Source of the DNA: Chloroflexota bacterium | GTDB taxonomy: Bacteria > Chloroflexota > Anaerolineae > Anaerolineales > UBA4823 | Assembly (NCBI GenBank): GCA_029265355.1 | Contig: JAJUJL010000034.1 | Coordinates: 1-39,506, forward strand | DNA length: 39,506 nucleotides | Direction: 5' to 3' | The notes under the pieces: model-generated | Told to the model about the DNA's origin: nothing | Databases searched by the model: none | What the model saw: the letters and a program-made list of their open reading frames with translations, nothing else | In this document: positions 9,226-22,709 of the stretch, piece after piece | Layout: every line of letters begins with the position of its first letter | Position numbering within the stretch: position 1 is the first letter of the stretch | Position numbers and translations under genes: made by a program

Positions 9226-10467
9226 TCATTTTCCTTCTGGAAACACTCGCCCGCCTTCGATGCGCCACAGCGTCGATTGGCTGGCAAATTCGTGCGCAAA
9301 CATATCCAGGTCGGTGGTGGTCAACAAGAGCTGCTCTGTTTGCAACAGGCGGGTGAGCAGATCAAGCCGTCTCTGACCATCCAGCTCAGCCAGCACCTCA
9401 TCCAGCAGGAGCACCGGCCACTCACCCACTTTATCCTTCATCCATAACACCTCTGCCAGTTTCAGCGACAGCACGGCAGTTCGCACCTGGCCGCGTGACC
9501 CGTAAACCCCCAAATCCAAGCCATTGCTCAAGAAGCGCAACTCGTCTCGGTGGGGGCCAATCGTAGTCACACCGCGCGCAACTTCTTCGCTGCGCAGGCG
9601 CCGCAGCTTGTCCAGGAAACCTTCCTGGATGCGTTCGGGTGGGATGTTCGAACGATCCAGCGGCGCGTCAATCGGAAGCATGTATTGCTGCGCGGGGCGT
9701 GGCAGAGGCTCGTAAGCGGGCTCATACGACAAACGCAGGATCTCCTCCCCGTGCGTCAATTCTCGATGAATGCGCGCTGCCAGCCTTTCCAGTTCTTGAA
9801 CAGCATGGATGCGCGCATGGATGAGCTGGGCTCCGCTCAGGGCAAGCTGCTCATCCCAAAAGCGTAACTGCTCCAGATCGCCGCCCCGCTCAGAGAGCTG
9901 TTTCAGCAATGCATTGCGCTGGGCAAGACTGCGGCTGTAAGATGAAAGCAGCGCAGCATACTGAGGATGCACCTGCCCCAATGTCAGGTTCAAATAACGG
10001 CGGCGCTCCTCGGGCGCGCCTTCCAGCACGCGCAGCGTTTGCGGCAAGAACAGGACAGCGTTGAACGCGCCGATCGTCTCGCTGAGCTTCCTCTCCGAAC
10101 CATCCAGCAACACCTCCCTGCGCACCCGCACGCTGCCGTTGGCATATCCATTGGGCTCCTGGATGATGCGCACCTCCAGCCGATGAGCGCCGGGTTTGAG
10201 CAGCGGAGAGGCGCAGGCAGTGGAGCGCTGGAAGCTGGCAGTGATGCGCGCGACCGCAACAGGCTCTTTACTTACTAAAAAATTGACCAGTTGGCGATCG
10301 TGTGTGGCATGAAAAGACGCAAAGGTTGCCAGATAATAGATCGACTCTAACAAGCTCGTTTTACCCTGGGCATTGGCGCCCAAAAGGATTAATACCCCTC
10401 TAGGCACATCCAGGTCAAGGCGAGAAAAGTTGCGAAAATGAGTTAGCGAGAGATGGTTCAGATGCAT
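9226..10467 (-). CDS. recF: DNA replication and repair protein RecF
   Basis: A 413-residue SMC-like ATPase that loads RecA at gapped DNA. From the ATG at 10467 it begins MHLNHLSLTHFRNFSRLDLD, the standard RecF N-terminus; 19 further upstream residues in the open frame are unlike the family. Walker A is GANAQGKTSLLE (K36), the signature is SRGQVRTAVLSLKLAEV, and Walker B with D-loop is VLLLDEVLAELDGQRR, followed by TTTDLDMF. A GGGG-rich Shine-Dalgarno precedes the ATG. It follows def and overlaps or abuts the MOSC gene. There is no dnaA, dnaN or gyrB neighbour, unlike the classical arrangement. Confidence 0.96.
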   Translation of the reverse strand: MHLNHLSLTHFRNFSRLDLDVPRGVLILLGANAQGKTSLLESIYYLATFASFHATHDRQLVNFLVSKEPVAVARITASFQRSTACASPLLKPGAHRLEVRIIQEPNGYANGSVRVRREVLLDGSERKLSETIGAFNAVLFLPQTLRVLEGAPEERRRYLNLTLGQVHPQYAALLSSYSRSLAQRNALLKQLSERGGDLEQLRFWDEQLALSGAQLIHARIHAVQELERLAARIHRELTHGEEILRLSYEPAYEPLPRPAQQYMLPIDAPLDRSNIPPERIQEGFLDKLRRLRSEEVARGVTTIGPHRDELRFLSNGLDLGVYGSRGQVRTAVLSLKLAEVLWMKDKVGEWPVLLLDEVLAELDGQRRLDLLTRLLQTEQLLLTTTDLDMFAHEFASQSTLWRIEGGRVFPEGK

Positions 10468-12954: not shown

Positions 12955-13098
12955 CCCGTTTTATCACGAGTCGATGTCAACTACCCTGTCTCACAAGAAT
13001 AGCCAGCTCTGTTTTAGCAAAGTTGCAATCTTTGCGCCAGCCAGTCCTGGTTTGAAAAGTGATAAAATGGCTTCCTACATTCACCTAAGGAGTTGTGT

Positions 13099-14559
13099 AT
13101 GCCGATCCACTTTGGCACCGATGGTTGGCGGGCTGTAATTTCTGATTCGTTCACTTTTCACAACCTGCGCATGGTTACCCAGGCAATTGCCGATGCGATT
13201 CGCTCTGAATCCTGGAATGATGGCGCTCCTGCCAGTGGAAATCCGGATGCAAAAAATATCGTCGTAGGCTTCGACACCCGCTTTCTCTCCGATCGCTACG
13301 CCACGGAGGTGGCGCGCGTGCTGGCAGCCAATGGTTTCACGGTTAACCTGGCTCAAGCAGATGCACCCACGCCAGCCATTTCGTTTTCCGTTCGACACCT
13401 GGGCGCCGCAGCCGGCGTTATGATCACCGCCTCACACAACGCTCCTCGCTACAACGGGGTGAAACTAAAAGCCTCCTATGGCGGCTCCGCTTTGCGCGAA
13501 CAATGCCGCAGGGTTGAGGTCTATTTGAACGACAACGAGGAACGGGCGCGAGGCCCAAACCTGATGGATTATGACCAGGCGCGCCGCCTGGGTCTCATCC
13601 AGCGCTTCAACCCGTTACCCGCCTACTTTGAGCACCTGCGCAAGCTAATCGACTTTGACGCCATCGCCGATAATCCCCAGCGACTGGTTGTGGACTCGAT
13701 GTACGGCTCCGGGCGAGGTGTGGTCAAGGGAATTTTGCAGGGCACCGGTTGCGAGGTGCAAGAAATCCGCGGCGAGATGAACCCAGGTTTCGGCGGCGTG
13801 CACCCAGAGCCGATTGCCAGGCACCTGGGCGCCCTGGCAGGCGCCATCAGCACCCACATGGGCAACTTCGGATTAGCCACCGATGGCGATGCTGACCGGA
13901 TTGGGGCCATGGATGAACGCGGCAACTTTGTGGACCCGCACAAGATCATGGCTCTGGCGCTGCGCCATCTGGTGGAAAAGAGGGGCTGGTTAGGACCTGT
14001 GGTGCGGACAGTTTCCACCACCCGCATGATTGACCGGCTGGCGCGCCGCTACGGGGTGCCAGTATACGAAACCCCGGTCGGCTTCAATCACATTGCCGAT
14101 TATATGCTCAAAGAGGACATCCTCATCGGCGGTGAAGAGTCCGGCGGCATCTCGTTTCGCGGGCACATCCCCGAAGGTGACGGCATCTTGATGGGATTGC
14201 TCATCGTTGAGATGGTGGCAACCTCTGGAAAAACATTGGTTGAATTGGTCGACAGCCTGCTGGAAGATGTTGGGCCAGCCTATTACCAGCGCAACGATTT
14301 GCGCCTGAGCCGCCCGGTATCCCAAGCTCAAATGGCAACCCTGTTATTGGAAAAAGCGCCCGCACACATCGCCGACGTCAGGCTCCAGGAAATCTCAACA
14401 TTGGATGGCGTTAAGTACATCCTGGAAGACGATTCCTGGCTGCTGATCCGCCCCTCCGGCACAGAACCCGTTTTGCGGGTGTACGCCGAAGGTCGCAGCC
14501 CGGAGATGGTGCGGGCTATGATCGGTTATGGCGAGCAGGTTGCCGCCAGCGCCACGTGA
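13099..14559 (+). CDS. Phosphoglucomutase/phosphomannomutase family protein
   Basis: A 486-residue alpha-D-phosphohexomutase that moves phosphate between C1 and C6 of hexose phosphates. All four domain signatures are present: IHFGTDGWRAVI at the N-terminus, the catalytic serine loop VMITASHNAPRYNGVKLK, the metal loop ATDGDADRIGAMDE, the sugar-specificity loop IGGEESGGISF and the phosphate-binding loop IRPSGTEPVLRVYAE. The GEESGG loop suits glucose or mannose phosphates but does not settle the substrate. The ATG at 13099 has AAGGAG 8 bases upstream; an in-frame TTG six bases earlier is less likely. It is convergent with the LPxTG-like gene, only 7 bp apart. Confidence 0.95.
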   Translation: MPIHFGTDGWRAVISDSFTFHNLRMVTQAIADAIRSESWNDGAPASGNPDAKNIVVGFDTRFLSDRYATEVARVLAANGFTVNLAQADAPTPAISFSVRHLGAAAGVMITASHNAPRYNGVKLKASYGGSALREQCRRVEVYLNDNEERARGPNLMDYDQARRLGLIQRFNPLPAYFEHLRKLIDFDAIADNPQRLVVDSMYGSGRGVVKGILQGTGCEVQEIRGEMNPGFGGVHPEPIARHLGALAGAISTHMGNFGLATDGDADRIGAMDERGNFVDPHKIMALALRHLVEKRGWLGPVVRTVSTTRMIDRLARRYGVPVYETPVGFNHIADYMLKEDILIGGEESGGISFRGHIPEGDGILMGLLIVEMVATSGKTLVELVDSLLEDVGPAYYQRNDLRLSRPVSQAQMATLLLEKAPAHIADVRLQEISTLDGVKYILEDDSWLLIRPSGTEPVLRVYAEGRSPEMVRAMIGYGEQVAASAT

Positions 14560-14566
14560 ATCTCTG

Positions 14567-15115
14567 CTAGGCTGTGCGCAGCCGCCGAGCCAACAAGATC
14601 ACAACCAGCATCAAGATCGTCAAGCCTAATAGCCCCGGAATGCCCACCTCATCTGCAAAACCGGTTGTCGGCAGCGCAGTTGACGTGGGCGTTTGCATGG
14701 ATGCGGCCTGCGTCAGCAGCGCAGCAACCGTCGGCGTACGTGGGTCTTCGGTTGGCTCGGGCGTATTGGTGGCTACGGCCACCACACTGGTCGCCGTTGG
14801 AGCGGTGGTGGCAGGCGGCAAAGTTGGTGTGCGGCTAGGTGTGGCTGTGAATGCCGCGGCAACAGATGTCTGCGTGATGGCAAGCGCCACCTGGGTATTC
14901 TGAGCATTGGCCTGGGCGATCTGGGTTGCCTCGGCGGCGCGCTGGCGCGGCAAGAAGAACATCCCGTAGACCACGATGCACACCAGGGCCAGGATGGCTA
15001 CTGCACCCAGGATGCCAGCCACGATGAGAAACGTGCGGTTGCTTGACTCCTCCACGGGCGGCGTCTCTTCCGGTTCCGCACTCATTGCAAGGTTATCATT
15101 CTCTTCAAATGTCAT
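14567..15115 (-). CDS. Membrane protein with Thr/Pro-rich stalk and LPxTG-like C-terminal tail
   Basis: A 182-residue protein. An acidic cytoplasmic N-terminus leads to a membrane segment (about 29-51). Next is a Gln/Ala-rich stretch and a low-complexity Thr/Pro/Ala stalk (about 88-148), probably glycosylated. The C-terminus reads LPTTGFADEVG (148-158), a hydrophobic segment and a basic tail ARRLRTA. That is the order of a sortase sorting signal (LPxTG, hydrophobic span, positive tail), here with an added N-terminal membrane anchor. Sortase processing is inference and no sortase lies in the window. A strong AGGAGG Shine-Dalgarno precedes the ATG at 15115. It lies 88 bp downstream of the seven-gene operon on the same strand and may be read with it. 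Confidence 0.75.
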   Translation of the reverse strand: MTFEENDNLAMSAEPEETPPVEESSNRTFLIVAGILGAVAILALVCIVVYGMFFLPRQRAAEATQIAQANAQNTQVALAITQTSVAAAFTATPSRTPTLPPATTAPTATSVVAVATNTPEPTEDPRTPTVAALLTQAASMQTPTSTALPTTGFADEVGIPGLLGLTILMLVVILLARRLRTA

Positions 15116-15203: not shown

Positions 15204-16259
15204 TCAAGCCAGCACTTCCATATTTGCCAAAGGGACAATGACCGTTTCGCCGTTTTCAAGCTTTACATCTGCCACCTGGGTTAAAATGCCATTGGGCAAG
15301 CTGGTGCGGCCAGAACGCACCTTAATGAGCACGCCCACCTTTCCTTCGTAAGGCGGACGCAGGATGCGCACCACCTGGTTCGGCGAGAAGATGTCGGTCT
15401 CACGCGGCGCGGAGACGTGTTCGGGCGCGGGCAGCTCAATCACAATCTCGGGTCGTGCTTCGCGGTAGCGGTCTCGCGGTTCCGCATTCAAACTCACTTC
15501 GCGGCGATTATTGGAAGTGAGCAGCTTAAATGCCGAGGAGTTCATCGGTATGTGACCGAAGCCATCCAGGATGATGATGGGGAAACGCATCTTCACTGCC
15601 ATTGAGTACAGCGACGAATCCATACTACCCAGGATCAAGCCGCGCAGCGGTAACTCGCCGGCTGCTTTCAGCACTTCGGCGCTCGCACAGTGACTTGCCA
15701 GGATAACAGAGCCGCGCATACTGACATCCAACTGATCTGGCGATAGAGCATCATCGGGTGATCTGGCAAGCACATACATCAACCCAAAATCGATGCGTCC
15801 GTTACCCCAAACACCCTGAATCAAGGCACCGGTGGTTTCGATCACCACACCGCGATCGCCCACCAACTCCGAAACGATGCCTGGCAGACCTGCTCGCAAC
15901 TCATAGGGAGGCGCATCCAATTCCATCAGCACCTGACCATCGCCAGCGACGATCACCTTTCCACTGCGCGGGGCGCGAACTAACCTTTGGGTAAAACCCA
16001 CCGGCCCTGCCAGCACGTCACCTTGTGCAACTGGGCTGCCCGCTTTGCAAACGATGTGCTGATCGGCTTTCTCACGCGACAACCCCAGGCTGCGTGCAAT
16101 ATCCAACAGCATGTGTTCCGGCGCCAGGCGAGCCTCGGCAACCACATCTGTAGCGCTGACCTTTTGCCCTTTGCGAACGACTACGCGACCCGGGATGGGC
16201 AGTAATCTCTCCCGCCGGATGAGCGTCAATGGCAAAATGTGGCTAACAGGTGCTAACAT
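15204..16259 (-). CDS. Conserved hypothetical, lipoyl/RnfC-like N-terminal part and KOW-like C-terminal part; last gene of the GlmL operon
   Basis: A 351-residue soluble protein I cannot assign to a named family. The N-terminal 115 residues (LPIPGRVVVRKGQKVSATDVVAEA, then GSPVAQGDVLAGPVGFTQRLVRAPRSGKVIVAGDGQVLMEL) look like the beta-barrel/sandwich folds of biotinyl-lipoyl or RnfC N-terminal domains, without an obvious modified lysine. The middle has glycine-rich blocks (GALIQGVWGNG, RGSVILASHCASAEVLKAA, RGLILGSMDSSLYSMAVKMRFPIIILDGFGHIPM). The C-terminus (PPYEGKVGVLIKVRSGRTSLPNG, then VADVKLENGETVIVPLANMEVL) is KOW/SH3-like. There is no signal peptide or membrane span. It follows the GlmL-like gene by 43 bp with AAGG before the ATG, so it is probably a cytoplasmic partner of the membrane assembly. 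Confidence 0.8.
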   Translation of the reverse strand: MLAPVSHILPLTLIRRERLLPIPGRVVVRKGQKVSATDVVAEARLAPEHMLLDIARSLGLSREKADQHIVCKAGSPVAQGDVLAGPVGFTQRLVRAPRSGKVIVAGDGQVLMELDAPPYELRAGLPGIVSELVGDRGVVIETTGALIQGVWGNGRIDFGLMYVLARSPDDALSPDQLDVSMRGSVILASHCASAEVLKAAGELPLRGLILGSMDSSLYSMAVKMRFPIIILDGFGHIPMNSSAFKLLTSNNRREVSLNAEPRDRYREARPEIVIELPAPEHVSAPRETDIFSPNQVVRILRPPYEGKVGVLIKVRSGRTSLPNGILTQVADVKLENGETVIVPLANMEVLA

Positions 16260-16302
16260 AGATCTCTACCTTGGTGTTGCAAGTAAAATGCCAGACATTT
16301 GT

Positions 16303-18057
16303 TCAGATACCAAGCGCCCACCGCCATTTTTCGATCATCTCGCGACGCTGCACCGCATCCTCCGGCAAACGCAAAGGGCGTCCACGCGCATCAATGACCA
16401 CACCGAGAACACCGCCCACCACGCGCAGGCCTCCGCCTCTGCCTGCCGCGCCCATGCCAACATCCGTCCGCTGCAGCGGTCTCAACTCCAACCTGGCAAC
16501 TTTCCCTATCGGCAAGTGCAGCATCTCCAGCGATCCCTGCTTGATTTCCAGAGCGGTTTCGCTGTTGTCGTCTTGCAGCATGCGCACCCGCAAGATAGGG
16601 GTACCCGGTTTGGCTTCTGAAACAGGCGAGATGACCGTCCCAAGGCTGACAAAGGTATTGGGTTCCAACACCTGCACCGCCAGCACCGGATTGGTGGCGG
16701 CAGCCGCCCCCAAGGATGGCAAGATGTGGTTGTAGTCAATGGCCAGGGTGGTCACACCAGTGGGCTGCAGGCCATCGAGCAGCATCAGCAGGCTGTGCGC
16801 CGGACTCGGCGCCTGCGTGATGACAGCTCCTGAAGCAAAGATCGGTTCAAACCACGGCGTCAGTTGGGGTCCATACCGAAAAACTCTGGCAGGGAAGCCC
16901 TCCGATGTTTTTAACAAGGCGAGGCGCATCAACTGCCGGGCAATCGCTTGCTCGATATCCAAGTCTTCTGCAGTGGCCGGCAGGCTGCCTGCAAACAAGG
17001 ATTTATTGTACAAATAATCGCGCACATCGTCTGGCGGAATGGGCAAATGCAGCCAGCGCATCAACTCGCCGTCCTCGCTGAGATCGAAAACCTGCGTCAA
17101 ATTCGCGCTCATGCCCAGTTGGCTGTGCACACCCATGAACAGTTCACCCGAGAAAGCCGCAGCCAGCGTGGTAGAAAAGGCGCCAACATCGATCCCCAAT
17201 ACTCCCTTGCTTTGATCATAGACGCGGCTCAGGAAACGGATGACCCTGCCAAAGCCGGTAGCGGTTGGAATCAACCCACCGCCCGCCCAGGCATCCAATT
17301 CTTGCACACCGGTTAATTTCCGGCTGCGCACAGAGCGGTACACGCTTGCCAGGTGGACAGTCGCCGGCTCCAAATCTTCCTCAGTTAACGTCGGACGCAC
17401 ATTGGGCGCAAATGTCACATTCGCCAGTTTACCCAATGCCTCTTGCACCTGTGGCTTAAGTTCCTGGTTGCCAGCATACAGCACATCGGGCCTTTGCTCC
17501 TGCGGCATCAGATAACACGCCAACCCGATCGCCTCCAACAGCTTGAGCACCGACTGCGATGCTCCACCTTCGGTTCCACCGGCAACCAGGATCAAATCAG
17601 GCCGGATGCGTAGGATGGTATCCATGCGCGTCTCGGTTTTTCGGCGGTCGGTCAAATTTATCGTATCCATCAAGCGGGCGTAGGTGGAAGAAGCCAGGCG
17701 GCGCACACTCTCCAGGGAGACATCCTCCAGCAAGCCCACCGCCACGATCTTGAGCGGCTGGCCCACCGATAGCGTGGCGCACACCTTGTCCACACCAGAG
17801 CCGTCCGCTCTGCTGGGCAGGATGAGTTGCTCGTCCGCGCCAATCAGGGTTCTACCGGTAATCACCTGCAACCGATCCAAAGCCATGCGAATTCCTTCGC
17901 CGATGTCAAAGTAAGGTGCATGCGCCGTGGTTAGCGCAGACCCCGAGGCCAAAAAACGATAGCTGCCATCCACCACATCGAACAAAGATGCTCGTGTGTT
18001 GATGCTGCCCACATCAATTGCCAGCAAGGAGTCAGCGTCGATCAGCGAAGTCGCCAT
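16303..18057 (-). CDS. GlmL/MutL-like ATPase (actin/Hsp70 fold)
   Basis: A 584-residue protein of the MutL (GlmL) family, named after a gene beside clostridial glutamate mutase; it is unrelated to mismatch-repair MutL. Two phosphate-binding loops of the actin/Hsp70 superfamily are visible: AIDVGSINTRASLFDV (13-28) and GIDVGAFSTTLAA (288-300). The family's DLILVAGGTEGGAS lies at 154-167. A long C-terminal part (about 440-584) carries a beta-rich section and a glycine-rich patch (AAGRGGGLRVVGGVLGVVID). In the known context the protein is thought to maintain a B12-dependent mutase, but no mutase subunit lies in this window. Its neighbours are membrane proteins, so here it probably serves as the energy-using part of a membrane complex; that is inference. 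The gap from the upstream gene is 6 bp. Confidence 0.88.
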   Translation of the reverse strand: MATSLIDADSLLAIDVGSINTRASLFDVVDGSYRFLASGSALTTAHAPYFDIGEGIRMALDRLQVITGRTLIGADEQLILPSRADGSGVDKVCATLSVGQPLKIVAVGLLEDVSLESVRRLASSTYARLMDTINLTDRRKTETRMDTILRIRPDLILVAGGTEGGASQSVLKLLEAIGLACYLMPQEQRPDVLYAGNQELKPQVQEALGKLANVTFAPNVRPTLTEEDLEPATVHLASVYRSVRSRKLTGVQELDAWAGGGLIPTATGFGRVIRFLSRVYDQSKGVLGIDVGAFSTTLAAAFSGELFMGVHSQLGMSANLTQVFDLSEDGELMRWLHLPIPPDDVRDYLYNKSLFAGSLPATAEDLDIEQAIARQLMRLALLKTSEGFPARVFRYGPQLTPWFEPIFASGAVITQAPSPAHSLLMLLDGLQPTGVTTLAIDYNHILPSLGAAAATNPVLAVQVLEPNTFVSLGTVISPVSEAKPGTPILRVRMLQDDNSETALEIKQGSLEMLHLPIGKVARLELRPLQRTDVGMGAAGRGGGLRVVGGVLGVVIDARGRPLRLPEDAVQRREMIEKWRWALGI

Positions 18058-18063
18058 GCAGCT

Positions 18064-18768
18064 CTATCCAGGGAAGATCAAGGGAGTTAGAAACTCCCGG
18101 AGGAATTCCAAACGTTCAACCAGTGCAGCAAAAGCTGCCAGGAATGCACCGGCAAATGTTGCGCCCAGGGTAACCGCAATAAATCCTTTTCCGATTTGAG
18201 CCACGATTTCCAACCAGGGGCTGCGCCGCGGCACGCCTCCCAGGCCAGGGCGGGCTCCAAAATGAAAATAGGCCAGCGTGCTGGTTGTGCCAACCAACAG
18301 CACCAATCCCGAAGCCACCTGCAACCAGGCTTCGCCTGGGCCTCGTCCTGCCGGATTCCAGTCCAATGCATTGATCGCAGCCAACACCTGGGGAAAAATT
18401 GTACCGATAACAGCGCCGCCCACCGCCGTGGCTGCACCAACGCCAACCAGGAAGGCAACCGCCGGCGAGCCAAACCAGGAGAGGCGCGAGGACATTTTCA
18501 GTAGCAGCAACCCGGCAAAGATTAACGGGAAAAGCACGAACAACCTTTCCGACTGACCGCCAAAGATCAGCGGAGAAAGAAGTTGAGGCCAAATCACGCT
18601 GTACCATGCCACAATCAGCGCATATCCTGCCGAGGCGCCAATGAAAAGATTGATCGAGACGCGGAAGAAAGGATTATCGCCCAGGATGTAGCTAAAAACC
18701 ATCACCGTCAAGAAGAATCCCACCAGGCCGCCGATCAACTCCATGAGCGCCGAGCTTTCCAGATTCAC
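18064..18768 (-). CDS. Polytopic membrane protein of the GlmL operon
   Basis: A 234-residue integral membrane protein with six or seven predicted spans: around ELIGGLVGFFLTVMVFSYIL, SINLFIGASAGYALIVAWYS, LFVLFPLIFAGLLLL, PAVAFLVGVGAATAVGGAVIG, WLQVASGLVLLVGTTSTLAYF and a C-terminal helix IGKGFIAVTLGATFAGAFLAA. The glycine/alanine-rich helices suggest tight helix packing. I recognise no named family or catalytic residues. Its ATG overlaps the stop of the zinc-ribbon/PDWL gene by four bases (ATGA), and it ends 6 bp before the GlmL-like gene, so it is made in step with both. Confidence 0.85.
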   Translation of the reverse strand: MNLESSALMELIGGLVGFFLTVMVFSYILGDNPFFRVSINLFIGASAGYALIVAWYSVIWPQLLSPLIFGGQSERLFVLFPLIFAGLLLLKMSSRLSWFGSPAVAFLVGVGAATAVGGAVIGTIFPQVLAAINALDWNPAGRGPGEAWLQVASGLVLLVGTTSTLAYFHFGARPGLGGVPRRSPWLEIVAQIGKGFIAVTLGATFAGAFLAAFAALVERLEFLREFLTPLIFPG

Positions 18769-21074
18769 GAGCTAGCCTCCTTTCGTGCATCAACGCTCGC
18801 ATTCGATTTGCTGAATCGATCGATCGTCCATCCCAAGCCGCCCAACAAGACCACCAACACAATCGCCAGGGGTACACCCAAACCAGATATTGACCAATAA
18901 GCGCCTCCCAGTCCCGGCCTGGCCAAAGAAGCCTCGTAAGCGGCTCCGCTGGAGACACCCGCCAGCATACCGCTCACAAGCCTGGGGGTGCCTTCATAAT
19001 ATGGTCGCACCACCGGCTCTGCCTGCGCGCTGACCAGCATCAAGAGAGGTTTACCGACCAGCTCCCTGCGCGTCTGCTCCACCCAGGCTCGGGCAACCTC
19101 AGGGTCGTTGGTGATCACGATCACCATACCGAAATCGGATAAACGGTTGATATTCGTCAGAGGGCCGGTGTTCCAGAGGTCAGCATCTTCAGCGGCGTTG
19201 AGTGCGTCTGGCAGCAATTGCTGGGGGGATTGCACAAAGGCAAACAATCCTGCGGTACCTCCGGGGATGTAGCCAAGATTGGCATATTGCATCATATCCT
19301 GGTATGTATGTCCGCCATTCGCATTGGTGCTGGCAATCAGGTGTTCCGCCAAGGCTGGGCCTGCTGGCTGCGAGGACACCAAAGCCAGATAAGCGCCTTT
19401 GATCATGAGGTGATCGAAGATTCCGCTGGCAATTGCTTCCATCTCGCCACTGAAGCCAGCCGGGTAATCAACGGCAACAAGCACAGGCGCTCCTGCGGGC
19501 AAGTTGTCCACCGCAGCGCGGGCGCTGAACACCGCCGGAGATAGGACCGGCGGCGGAGAAGACACCAGGCCGAAAATGGATTGGGACAAAACTGCCGCTA
19601 CCAAAGCCAGGAACACAACCAGGCGCAGCAATTGTTGTGAAGAAATCACAGGGCTCTCGCGCAGTTCACGCGGTTTGCCCTCCATCTTGATCATCTTCTC
19701 CAGCATCTCAGCCTGCGCCCGTTGGGTATCGCTGAGTTGCAGTTTCAAGGTGTACGCCTGGGGCGCTCGCTGAGAAGCGATCTCAGGCTCGGCTGGCAGT
19801 ACCCCCCTCAAGCCTGCCAGCGGCCCACTCGAGATGACTTTTTGCTCATCCTGGCTGCGCATCGGAATGACCGGAGCGGCGGCTTCGACAGGGCGCATCG
19901 CCTCCAGCCAGCTTGGCAACTCAGCTCGCGCCAATCCCGGCTCTTCGGGTAAAACCGGAGCAGCGCTCGAAGCTCCTTCTGCCAGCGATTCGTCTTCAAA
20001 CCCAGGCAAGTCTTCTACAAATGGGCTCACAGAAACCCGCCCAGGTTCACCAGGCGTCGACGAAGTAACCTGCTCGCCTTCGAAAGGTGAAGCGCCAAGA
20101 ACTGGCGCGTTCTCTGCCCGTTCAGCAAACAAATTATCAGTCGCTCGGTCCTGCCCAGTTTTTTCTTCAGGGGCCGATTCCTGGGGCGTCGGTGCTGCCA
20201 TTCCGGAAAGCCAGTCCGGAATTTCAGCATCCGCAGAAGCAGAAAATATGGATGGCGGGAACGAGGGGGGCGCGAGAGATTCATCGGGCAGCGATGGCTC
20301 AGAGCTGGAGTGCCAATCCGATTGATCTACGGAGCTTGCCGGATGGTCTTCTTCCTGCGTTGGTGTTTCGGACTTCTCCAGCTTCGAAGCTGCTTTGTCG
20401 ATGCCCGCCAGCCAGTCTGGAATTTCTGGCGCCTCGAGCGGCTCACCTTCCACATTCTGAGATTTCTGACGCCCAAGCAACCACTCTGGGATGTCGTCAC
20501 TGGCAGGTTGCGCGGCATCCACAGATGGCGATGGTTTGTTGGCGGTGAGCCAGTCGGGAATATCCTCCGCTGGCTCGATTGAACTCTCTGCACTGCTTAA
20601 CCCCGCCAACCAGTCGGGTAGAGGCTCTTCAGTTTCCGAGCTGCCCAGTGCCTCCAGGTTATCTGCCGGTGCACCCTCATCTTCCAGTTTTCGAGCGCGA
20701 ATTCGCTGCAGCCAGTCTGGTTCGGCGTCTTCTCGAGGCGGAGGAGCACCAGCCGTCGGTCGGTCTGGGCGTGCAGATTGCGGTTTCTTGGTTGGTTCAG
20801 AATCGACTGCCTGGGAACGAATGTCAGCCAACCAATCCGGAAGCTCATCATCCTGAGCACTGGCTCCTGGCGGCGGCGCCCACCAATCTGCTTCACTTGG
20901 CCCCTGGTCTTTCTCGCCCTCTGGCACATTGCGCAAGCTGGCGAGCCAATCTTCCAATTCAGAACCGCCCGCGCCTGTCAGCGGCGTCAAACGCGCCTGG
21001 CAAAATCGGCAAATCTCCAACTCGGCCGGGTTCAGCTTACCACACAGGGGACAACGTACATCTGCCATGCTCAT
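18765..21074 (-). CDS. Zinc-ribbon membrane protein with nine PDWL-type motifs
   Basis: A 769-residue protein in four parts. Residues 8-25 are a zinc ribbon (CPLC, then CRFC; cysteines 8, 11, 22, 25). Residues 35-400 are an acidic, Pro/Ser/Glu-rich, probably disordered region with a short motif of the form [IL]-P-[DE]-W-L repeated: cores at 41-44, 79-82, 119-122, 153-156, 173-176, 196-199, 219-222, 286-289 and 387-390, often followed by AG or a small pair and a hydrophobic residue. A charged, probably helical stretch (about 440-475) leads to a membrane span (482-504). An outside domain of about 230 residues (VLVAVDYPAGFSGEMEAIA, HLMIKGAYLALVSSQP, YANLGYIPGGTAGL) ends in a second span (GVPLAIVLVVLLGGLGW) and a short basic tail. 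So the motif region is cytoplasmic and could dock several partner copies. Starts and stops overlap both neighbours. Confidence 0.85.
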   Translation of the reverse strand: MSMADVRCPLCGKLNPAELEICRFCQARLTPLTGAGGSELEDWLASLRNVPEGEKDQGPSEADWWAPPPGASAQDDELPDWLADIRSQAVDSEPTKKPQSARPDRPTAGAPPPREDAEPDWLQRIRARKLEDEGAPADNLEALGSSETEEPLPDWLAGLSSAESSIEPAEDIPDWLTANKPSPSVDAAQPASDDIPEWLLGRQKSQNVEGEPLEAPEIPDWLAGIDKAASKLEKSETPTQEEDHPASSVDQSDWHSSSEPSLPDESLAPPSFPPSIFSASADAEIPDWLSGMAAPTPQESAPEEKTGQDRATDNLFAERAENAPVLGASPFEGEQVTSSTPGEPGRVSVSPFVEDLPGFEDESLAEGASSAAPVLPEEPGLARAELPSWLEAMRPVEAAAPVIPMRSQDEQKVISSGPLAGLRGVLPAEPEIASQRAPQAYTLKLQLSDTQRAQAEMLEKMIKMEGKPRELRESPVISSQQLLRLVVFLALVAAVLSQSIFGLVSSPPPVLSPAVFSARAAVDNLPAGAPVLVAVDYPAGFSGEMEAIASGIFDHLMIKGAYLALVSSQPAGPALAEHLIASTNANGGHTYQDMMQYANLGYIPGGTAGLFAFVQSPQQLLPDALNAAEDADLWNTGPLTNINRLSDFGMVIVITNDPEVARAWVEQTRRELVGKPLLMLVSAQAEPVVRPYYEGTPRLVSGMLAGVSSGAAYEASLARPGLGGAYWSISGLGVPLAIVLVVLLGGLGWTIDRFSKSNASVDARKEASS

Positions 21075-21697
21075 CGTCCATAGGGCCGGTCAGCCCCCAG
21101 AATGACACGCAAGCCTACCGCAATGGTGCCCAACCCGATCCCCAGCAACAAACCTCTACCACCCGCTACCGAAGGTACGCCTGCGATCCACTCTCTTAGC
21201 CCGCCTGCGCCGTGCAATCCAGGGATATTCAGTCCAAAAAGGGGCACCGCGCCAGCCAGCATCACCAAAGCGGTCGCCAGGAACAGCAAGTTGAACCAGT
21301 TTGCGCTGCGCCTTAACATGCGCGCCGCGGCAACCACCAATACCACCGTCAACAGCGCCATCACGCTGCTCTCGACAGGCAGTTGGACGTATTGATAAAT
21401 CCACAAAGCCAGGGTATTAGTGGGGCCAAGCAGTCCGGCAATGATCGCAGTAAGAATGAGCGATACCACCAACAGCAGCGAGTAAATGCTGCTGCCTCCT
21501 TGCGCAGTACTCATTTTGCGCCAGTGCACCATCAGCAGATTCACGACGCCCACCACCAACGCAATGGCGGCCAGGATGACGGTGTAACGCAAAAACACAT
21601 CTCGGAGTAGTACCAACAGGGACAGATCAATGAAATAGCCGGCTAAGACAACCAGCCCAAACGTAATTGCAATGGCAGCCGAAAAAGCCGACTTCAT
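21071..21697 (-). CDS. Polytopic membrane protein of the GlmL operon
   Basis: A 208-residue membrane protein from the ATG at 21697, which overlaps the upstream stop as ATGA; the open frame extends 19 residues further but those lie inside the previous gene. About six spans are predicted, around FSAAIAITFGLVVLAGYFI, YTVILAAIALVVGVVNLLM, SLLLVVSLILTAIIAGLLG, ESSVMALLTVVLVVAAARML, LLFLATALVMLAGAVPLFG and GLLLGIGLGTIAVGLRVILG. There are no recognisable catalytic motifs. Its stop overlaps the ATG of the zinc-ribbon gene. Role unknown beyond likely membership of a membrane complex. Confidence 0.83.
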   Translation of the reverse strand: MKSAFSAAIAITFGLVVLAGYFIDLSLLVLLRDVFLRYTVILAAIALVVGVVNLLMVHWRKMSTAQGGSSIYSLLLVVSLILTAIIAGLLGPTNTLALWIYQYVQLPVESSVMALLTVVLVVAAARMLRRSANWFNLLFLATALVMLAGAVPLFGLNIPGLHGAGGLREWIAGVPSVAGGRGLLLGIGLGTIAVGLRVILGADRPYGR

Positions 21698-22443
21698 ACC
21701 ACCCCCAAGATTTTCAACACCGCGCCCACCAGCATGGCGACAATCAATGTCCAACGGAAGAAGTCCTGGGCGCGTAAGCTGGCAGTATTGATTGCGCTGC
21801 TGTTAAGATATGCGGCGGCGGCATAAAATTCCTCGCCCAGCAGCGGCTCCTGCGCCGAGGCCACCAGCACCGCCTGGGCAGGCAAACTATCACTGCCTCC
21901 CAGGGTGATACCGCCTATTTGCGATGTGGCATCCGCAATCAATGCCGCCTCACTGCCGATGTGTCCGGCGATCACCGTGGCGCTGACCTGTTCACTGCTC
22001 ACGACCTGCACTGTTCCGGTCACATAGGATAGCGGCGTAATACCAACAACCTGCCCAAGGTTGGGATCGAACTGGTTAGAAGCGCCGATCGCAGCAAAGG
22101 CAGTGCTCATTGTATCTTGTGACAGGATGCCCAGCGTGCCATCGCCAGAGGTCGCAATGCTCGGTTTGTCGCTGATCGAAGCAGTCCGCGCCACGCGTTC
22201 CAGCACGCCCAATCCAACCAGCGCTGCACCCGCTTGCAAGCCATTGAACTCGCCGCTGCCCAGGCTGACGTGCATACACCGGCCCGACTCAACGGCGATA
22301 CCAATCGCCTGGGTCAGGCGCTGGTAAGCCCTCAAAACGCGCAAGTTGCCCCCAGGTCGCCTCCTGCCCATGGCAGCAAACACCAACATCAGCGCCAGGA
22401 ATAACAGCACAAAGGCCAGGCCTAAAATACCCGGGGTGATCAT
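21694..22443 (-). CDS. Membrane-anchored protein, DUF6754-like (from memory)
   Basis: About 249 residues, with a membrane helix at each end (ITPGILGLAFVLLFLALMLVFA and FFRWTLIVAMLVGAVLKILGVV) and a globular part between. The middle is alanine- and glycine-rich: HVSLGSGEFNG, AALVGLGVLERVARTASISD, TSGDGTLGILSQDTM, GHIGSEAALIADAT, GSDSLPAQAVLVASAQEPLLGEEFYAAAAYL. I associate these blocks with the orphan family DUF6754, found in Chloroflexota, but I have not checked this. Start choice is uncertain: ATG at 22443, just after the upstream stop, or GTG at 22458 or 22449. Its stop TGA overlaps the next ATG. Confidence 0.8.
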   Translation of the reverse strand: MITPGILGLAFVLLFLALMLVFAAMGRRRPGGNLRVLRAYQRLTQAIGIAVESGRCMHVSLGSGEFNGLQAGAALVGLGVLERVARTASISDKPSIATSGDGTLGILSQDTMSTAFAAIGASNQFDPNLGQVVGITPLSYVTGTVQVVSSEQVSATVIAGHIGSEAALIADATSQIGGITLGGSDSLPAQAVLVASAQEPLLGEEFYAAAAYLNSSAINTASLRAQDFFRWTLIVAMLVGAVLKILGVV

Positions 22444-22448
22444 TTCCA

Positions 22449-22709
22449 CTAAGGCCACTGGTTTTCAGTCTCCCTCAGGAATTTAGAGAACGCCTGCACC
22501 TGATCAGGATTTTCCAACAGGCCAGCCAGGGCGGTCAAGTCTGCATCCGAAAACATCAGGCGCAACACCGGTTGGCCGAGATACAACGCCTGGGCTCCGA
22601 ACCAGGTCATTGGGCCGCTGGCTTCCAGGAAGGAAGCTGCCCAATCGGATAACCCCCAGCCACGGAGCCGCTCAGCCCATGACCGCCACATCTGCTGGTT
22701 GGTCACCAT
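22449..22709 (-). CDS. Small hypothetical protein, first gene of the GlmL operon
   Basis: An 86-residue soluble protein from the ATG at 22709; the open frame continues upstream but only through promoter-like sequence. It is rich in Trp and Leu (MWRSWAERLRGWGLSDWAASFLEAS, GPMTWFGAQALYLGQPVLRLM) and ends LLENPDQVQAFSKFLRETENQWP, so it is probably all-helical. I recognise no family. The stop (TAG) lies within 10 bp of the next gene's start. TATACT six bases before the ATG marks this as the start of the operon. Confidence 0.7.
   Translation of the reverse strand: MVTNQQMWRSWAERLRGWGLSDWAASFLEASGPMTWFGAQALYLGQPVLRLMFSDADLTALAGLLENPDQVQAFSKFLRETENQWP

Follow-up and report, generated by a model that had tools for sequence, protein, structure and literature searches.

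The window analysed here is a 39,506-nt stretch of DNA from a Chloroflexota bacterium (contig JAJUJL010000034.1 of assembly GCA_029265355.1), whose minus strand carries a compact operon that joins a MutL-family ATPase gene to genes for four membrane proteins. A first-pass annotation of this DNA had described seven tightly packed minus-strand genes, and we confirmed them as the open reading frames (ORFs) A to G at positions 22709–15204. An eighth gene, H, which had been left out of that list, also belongs to the operon. The features of the locus are as follows.

22449–22709, minus strand: A, a small soluble protein of 86 residues with no family assignment
21694–22458, minus strand: B, a DUF6754 (PF20539) protein with a transmembrane (TM) segment, a Rossmann-like domain and a second TM segment
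21071–21697, minus strand: C, a six-TM membrane protein with no family over cut-off; its ATG start at 21697 overlaps the stop codon of B
18765–21074, minus strand: D, a zinc ribbon followed by a tail of Trp-Leu (W-L) motifs, a TM segment, a Rossmann-like domain predicted to lie outside the membrane and another TM segment
19902–20948, minus strand: the tail of D, with nine W-L motifs (W at residues 43–389), mostly acidic-[LI]-P-[DES]-W-L
18918–19490, minus strand: the Rossmann-like domain of D (residues ~529–719), from a predicted structure
18064–18768, minus strand: E, a membrane protein of 5–6 TM segments with no family over cut-off; its GTG start overlaps the stop codon of D
16303–18057, minus strand: F, the MutL-family ATPase, 584 residues, with an extra C-terminal domain (~466–584) beyond the MutL model
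15204–16259, minus strand: G, a soluble protein with a barrel-sandwich-like N-terminus, a conserved Q-G-x-W-G-N motif and, by eye, a KOW/SH3-like C-terminus
14567–15115, minus strand: H, a TM segment, a Thr/Pro-rich region, LPTTG, a second TM segment and an Arg tail, resembling a sortase signal

The spacing of the genes was tight throughout, with an overlap of ~10 bases between A and B, provided that the first GTG is the start of B, and gaps of 6, 43 and 88 bases at E/F, F/G and G/H, respectively. ATGA overlaps had been reported at three junctions; two of them, B/C and C/D, were found as described, but the D/E junction reads GTGA. The protein types proposed for the seven genes were borne out, A and G being soluble, B, C, D and E membrane proteins and F a MutL-type ATPase, and the zinc ribbon assigned to one of the membrane proteins corresponds to a weak match in the D of the window. 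Among the proteins of the operon, Pfam cut-offs were passed only by B (DUF6754, 99.3 bits over a cut-off of 27, E 2.6e-28) and F (MutL, PF13941, 226.2 bits over 27, E 9.1e-67). A crude hydropathy scan of the homologues flagged two segments in 105 of 107 B and in 105 of 116 D sequences, six in 94 of 107 C and 5–6 in 99 of 115 E; it also flagged 1–4 segments in 86 of 117 F sequences, which we took as the buried core of the ATPase fold, and some in 12 of 99 A and 16 of 105 G. Scans for promoters (8 found versus 4.0 in shuffled sequence) and terminators (13 versus 10.1) were not used.

Conservation of the gene order was followed in 121 loci, namely the window, 40 loci picked by DUF6754 and 80 picked by F, so that B is present by construction in the 41-locus set and F in the 80-locus set; two entries, L047 and L152, are one contig. 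Throughout the 121 loci, every gene had its best match on one common strand, and median gaps between neighbours from A to G were −4 to +4 bases, which are lower bounds obtained with earliest starts. By the same measure C and D stood more than 1000 bases apart in 2 of 107 pairs. All eight genes were present in 75 of the 121 loci and H in 93, while seven loci contained a second, H-like ORF on the opposite strand. In the 41-locus set, profiles grown from the window recovered B, C and D everywhere, E in 38 loci, A and F in 37 each, G in 25 and H in 17, several of the misses being contig ends. Scanning of GTDB genomes with the F profile yielded at least 574 relatives, and the best 80 of these all came from organisms named Chloroflexi/Chloroflexota or of Anaerolineae type. 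The order A-B-C-D-E-F-G-H held in these 80 as far as the contigs extend, bar four loci: two where overlapping ORF starts shuffled the order, L079 (A to G, no H found) and L084, a chromosome-level metagenome-assembled genome with F-G-H and no A–E. The L084 locus is best read as an assembly gap with a suspect join, because unreadable bases (X in the translation) occur at the F start, near 9785–10000, and the DUF6754 gene of this genome is located far from F-G-H.

The first-pass annotation had suggested a neighbourhood survey across Chloroflexota, on which the idea of one system would stand or fall, and this survey showed the genes to be co-conserved well beyond close relatives. The operon usually consists of eight genes in the order of the window. 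Outside the Chloroflexota, too, there are proteins resembling B, D and E. Patterns of B and D searched in viral contigs, and of D and E in plasmids, found no relatives, and PADLOC anti-phage models gave 0 families for A–H at E 0.01.

The second question was whether F serves a mutase, as its family name implies. In PMC4682846, MutL/GlmL is termed a chaperone reactivating glutamate mutase, with a citation of work on diol dehydratase. According to one alternative explanation, F is such a reactivase or chaperone of a coenzyme-B12 mutase, as proposed for GlmL, and the membrane genes are passengers. Membership of F in the MutL family speaks for it: the methylaspartate mutase accessory protein GlmL/MutL has the same ATPase domain, and F keeps the motif residues. 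In 117 F sequences D15 was found in 99 (E in 13), G17, T21 and G292 in 114 each, D290 in 102 and G410 in 116, positions that we take to be the ATP motifs. In contrast to GlmL/MutL, F carries the extra C-terminal domain, where D556 and R558 of a D-x-R-G-R-P motif were each kept in 116 of the 117 sequences, and it has a fixed partner, G. F also fell far below the GlmL equivalog models, with 99.5 bits against a cut-off of 475 for NF040745, 65.9 against 204.05 for TIGR01319 and 64.9 against 600 for NF040744. This shortfall is weak evidence by itself, because the other MutL of the same genome misses these cut-offs too (283.3, 194.8 and 173 bits, respectively), which the reactivase explanation can count in its favour.

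Gene neighbourhoods and phylogeny pointed away from a mutase. The genome of the window, checked as the first-pass annotation had suggested, has no match to GlmE (PF06368). When the ORFs of 160 loci of F or G type were searched by blastp (E 1e-5) with query proteins taken from three control loci, none resembled GlmE or OraE; weak GlmS-like matches in these loci were methylmalonyl-CoA mutase subunits. As a positive control, we examined eight mutase-type MutL loci of Chloroflexota. L174 and L175 contained GlmE and L177 OraE over the cut-offs, L178 had a B12-binding ORF adjoining MutL, and GlmS/GlmE-like ORFs were recognised by eye in L173, with no mutase neighbour seen in L176. In the remaining two, L179 and L180, MutL formed part of a single long chain with a B12-binding-like start. 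The L180 chain (L180:8212-12018), which lies in the genome of the window on contig C4 at ~369–373 kb, consists of 1269 residues with the MutL domain at the end, a weak B12-binding match at the start (21.6 bits, cut-off 32.1) and a middle part matching no Pfam family; it may combine a mutase with its helper in a single chain, and L179 (genome G184) looks alike. In a quick tree, one branch with a support of 100 in the SH-like approximate likelihood-ratio test (SH-aLRT) separated 62 F-type proteins from the eight mutase-type MutLs.

The first-pass annotation had described the system as lacking any mutase, which is correct for the operon but not for all neighbourhoods. Genes for the methylmalonyl-CoA mutase small subunit and MeaB lay divergently beside A in 20 of the 121 loci (19 distinct contigs), which speaks for the reactivase explanation, and the small-subunit copy that we checked was over the cut-off of TIGR00640. 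Five of these loci (L041, L042, L046, L047 and L069) came from the broad set and were all of family f2, and another 15 were among the 80 loci L073-L152. Methylmalonyl-CoA mutase is a real neighbour in one group, outside the operon, and it brings its own chaperone, MeaB. A mutase gene was not a routine part of the locus in the 160 loci. With no GlmE or OraE, the split in the tree and the co-conservation of the operon, F very probably acts in a machine other than glutamate mutase, as had been proposed, and is probably not the mutase helper suggested by the MutL/GlmL name. We consider the reactivase explanation improbable, and it is very likely that the operon specifies one functional system distinct from mutase reactivation.

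Another alternative is that F is the PilM- or FtsA-type actin-fold member of a type IV pilus or division apparatus. PilM was the best, though weak, match of the F profile to PDB sequences (E 0.0075 over 87 profile positions), and the PilM/PilN subcomplex of type IV pili likewise places an actin-fold protein beside membrane proteins. However, the PilM_2 model (PF11104) applied to 12 genomes found other proteins in 10 of them and never the F locus, and no pilus gene was recognised in the operon. A pilus or division apparatus is disfavoured and appears highly improbable.

Next, we asked which genes accompany F across the phylum, using a sample of 301 Chloroflexota genomes in which counts take no account of phylogeny. 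DUF6754 was found in 67 genomes including that of the window, and loci were read for 40 of the remaining 66. PF13941 matched 158 of the 301, many of them without DUF6754, and the F and G profiles matched 181 and 158 genomes, respectively. After three genomes with only a mutase-type MutL were left out, F and G occurred together in 155, F only in 23, G only in 3 and neither in 120 (Fisher 1e-55, a test that ignores relatedness); in one G-only genome (G137) a diverged F-like ORF adjoins G (L194, 2e-8). Genomes with DUF6754 had F in 66 and G in 63 of the 67. In genomes without a DUF6754 match, 19 loci were read, of which 18 contained F; G stood beside F in 17 of these 18 and a D-like zinc-ribbon protein was present in 11, while B, C and E were missing from 17, all three being present only in L164. 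Since a reduced unit of F, G and often a zinc-ribbon protein usually remains where DUF6754 is missing, F-G is the core of the system, and B-C-D-E accompany this core in about a fifth of genomes. The earlier picture of an ATPase joined to a membrane complex thus stands for the operon, but the membrane part is not universal and F-G often occurs without B, C and E.

D, which often persists in the reduced unit as a shorter relative, has an unusual tail. It usually repeats an acidic-hydrophobic-P-[DAS]-W-L motif, with up to ~70 P-[DAS]-W-L copies, and the protein is predicted from its sequence to be inserted inside-out-inside with a cytoplasmic N-terminal part. W-[LIMV] pairs exceeded their number in shuffled sequences in the 41 D proteins (651 versus 115), in 75 other D proteins (784 versus 139) and in 11 D-like proteins from loci lacking DUF6754 (51 versus 11), and a zinc-ribbon pattern was found within the first 120 residues of 27, 58 and 11 of these proteins, respectively. 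A strict DNA pattern of the motif had 15 copies in the genome of the window (1 in the reversed control), five of them in D, seven in one other gene and three single. Mean counts per genome in the 301-genome sample were 10.5 with DUF6754 (reversed control 2.6), a value that is partly circular because D itself supplies many copies, 3.5 with F only (2.5) and 1.9 with neither (2.1). Complete listings for five genomes of families f24, f34 and f63 placed 38 of 42, 29 of 33, 12 of 14, 17 of 23 and 11 of 15 copies in D, and the spacing of the strict motif differed among these genomes, being 48 or 84 bases in two. Retention of the W-L motif while its spacers vary suggests that many binding sites are under selection. 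Because the reduced unit keeps only the D-like protein, F and G, the binding partner of the motif would most simply be F or G.

The only other gene with a strict-pattern cluster in the genome of the window (L218:5933-10267, contig C4) encodes a protein of 1445 residues that combines TPR repeats and a helix-hairpin-helix with 16 P-x-W-L motifs. Among seven further genomes picked for a second cluster, six had one ORF with a like start and the motifs (TPR by eye), and in the seventh, G240, the motifs lay on two neighbouring ORFs.

In some families G lies apart from F. For families such as f24, f34, f60 and f63, ten loci with at least 1.3 kb of sequence downstream of F showed no G there, and G was located elsewhere in the genome; our guess, and only that, is that these families are gliding Chloroflexia. 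Twelve genomes with an unlinked G were examined, and all but G230 had an F match. The keeping of both genes despite their separation is evidence that F and G are linked by more than gene order. In all 12 loci with an unlinked G (L181-L191 and L193), the 2.5 kb after G included a receiver-domain protein on its strand, with a hybrid histidine kinase in between in six, suggesting two-component control of the system only where G is unlinked. Four of five receiver proteins scanned matched MAPKK1_Int or Robl_LC7 weakly (E 0.005–0.04, below cut-off), both of which are roadblock folds.

These regulators, together with the roadblock-like matches, would fit a trans-envelope motility, adhesion or polarity complex controlled by receiver-domain proteins, with D as an analogue of GltJ. 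GltJ is a zinc-finger, multivalent TM protein with partners in Myxococcus gliding, and the usual architecture of D (zinc ribbon, motif tail, TM segment, outside domain) is of this kind. However, the operon contains no recognisable motility gene, the matches to roadblock families stay below cut-off, and F-G is also found in many other Chloroflexota families. We regard such a motility complex as unlikely.

To characterise the membrane part, we combined charge distribution with structure prediction. Mean K+R counts in the flanks of the B segments (0.39/4.08/1.1/0.11 in 105 loci) predict, by the positive-inside rule, an outside-in-outside topology with a cytoplasmic domain. C is predicted to have six TM segments with the N-terminus inside and E 5–6 segments of ambiguous orientation. 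AlphaFold models were Rossmann-like both for B (m6699ec5f5b65, pLDDT 78.3, pTM 0.68) and for the outside domain of D (m4e2d8790d334, pLDDT 89.5, pTM 0.81), and homology between B and D was not detectable by hhalign (probability 9.8). Structural neighbours of both were generic Rossmann-like folds with no specific PDB match, and their mixture of RCK, SIS-type, dehydrogenase and other entries was not read as an indication of function. Sequence profiles of C and E had no PDB match at E 1, and those of B and D gave nothing usable. The N-terminus of G weakly resembles the barrel-sandwich domains of RnfC and NqrA, below both cut-offs (15.9 bits against 25.6 for RnfC_N; 21.8 against 25 for NqrA_N with the G of L181), but no other Rnf or Nqr subunit was recognised in the operon. 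The best PDB match of G, to a protein named lysozyme (5i8l, E 9.4e-6), came from W-G-N-G in three repeats of ~10 bits each and was judged a local resemblance.

H may provide a link to the cell surface. The protein of the window passed the LPXTG signal model TIGR01167 (16.6 bits, cut-off 15.9, E 0.0091), LPxT[GAS] occurred within the last 60 residues of 68 of 93 H homologues, and sortase genes were found in 10 of 10 genomes tried, with two in that of the window; the LPxTG-like end and the sortases would be compatible with surface anchoring. This evidence, the four membrane proteins and the predicted outside domain of D are what recommends a further alternative, akin to the export idea of the first-pass annotation, in which the operon encodes a helper of cell-envelope or surface-protein assembly or secretion and H is its sortase-anchored product. 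On the other hand, H was detected in only 17 of the 41 broad loci, none of the operon's genes was recognised as a secretion component, and the lack of B, C and E from nearly all F loci of genomes without DUF6754 does not suit an envelope helper. We therefore rate this alternative as rather unlikely.

Downstream of H, the window contains a convergent gene of the phosphoglucomutase/phosphoglucosamine mutase family (13093–14559). Of the best 80 GTDB loci, 44 had a convergent phosphoglucomutase-like gene downstream, and 16 had a gene upstream for glucose-1-phosphate adenylyltransferase, an identity checked in one copy. Neither was accepted as a clue to function, since both look like shared local synteny.

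Taken together, a self-contained Chloroflexota system is the best explanation overall, at a probability that we place only a little short of even. Its possible mechanism, which we hold more tentatively still, is that of an ATP-switched scaffold or assembly machine docked at the membrane. F would be the ATP-binding switch of the actin-fold (ASKHA) kind working with G, and a zinc-ribbon and W-L-motif adaptor, either D or its short relatives, would usually join the two. Where B, C and E are kept, D may also connect the cytoplasmic F-G core with some sixteen membrane helices that form one complex and carry Rossmann-like domains on both sides, that of B in the cytoplasm and that of D outside. Through its repeated P-x-W-L motifs, D could retain a cytoplasmic partner in multiple copies at the membrane, and F, whose activity G would modulate, may bind and hydrolyse ATP to assemble, release or remodel the complex. 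F and G would thus act as engine and cofactor, D as a multivalent adaptor and B-C-D-E as the membrane base. The observations behind this scheme are the gene order, the co-occurrence, the separate clade in the quick tree, the conserved ATP-motif residues, the topology pattern and the motif array. Beyond these it supposes a single complex of the products, ATP hydrolysis by F, binding of the motifs to F or G, and a role in assembly or scaffolding.

A number of points weigh against this mechanism. The tree is a quick version, its careful search being unfinished, and nine F rows have very long branches. The zinc ribbon was not found within the first 120 residues in 14 of the 41 D proteins and 17 of the 75 others, where some ORFs are cut or start upstream. 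The D proteins of family f20 (L036-L038 and L071, 286–299 residues) have neither ribbon nor motif tail in the presence of the operon, so that the tail is not essential everywhere, and such proteins slightly lower the probability of the scaffold machine. The folds of B and D are generic, with best Z scores of 9.4 (133 aligned, root-mean-square deviation (rmsd) 3.1) and 8.8 (141 aligned, rmsd 3.6), where the best background score is usually 7–8. L199 has C-D-E-F and no G, and F was found without a G match in the 23 genomes mentioned above, where a G profile built from near relatives may miss diverged G. Finally, what ties the membrane genes to F-G is their gene order.

A bolder form of the scaffold proposal is a phylum-wide machine in which the actin-fold ATPase and G drive a membrane-anchored, multivalent Trp-Leu-motif scaffold gathering its cytoplasmic partner into a membrane-bound assembly. 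In the class of the window it would also gather the TPR protein with the same motif array, and in some families it would be under two-component control. We consider this version doubtful, about as much so as the surface-protein helper.

The search turned up no description of a system with this composition, and the operon is new in that sense. B is a clear member of PF20539, a family named only as a domain of unknown function, and the name DUF6754 did not appear in the open literature searched; nor was there a description of the system under the names searched, in a limited library. Most of the products lack a functional name, and that of F comes from another pathway. From our results, a MutL/GlmL label in Chloroflexota should not be taken to indicate glutamate mutase. 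Because the gene set keeps its order across many families and F and G are kept even when unlinked, the system is very probably important to the cells that carry it. Our results define its core (F, G and often a zinc-ribbon adaptor), a membrane module and a testable interaction motif. If the Trp-Leu scaffold machine proves true, it would be an organiser of a class so far undescribed in bacteria.

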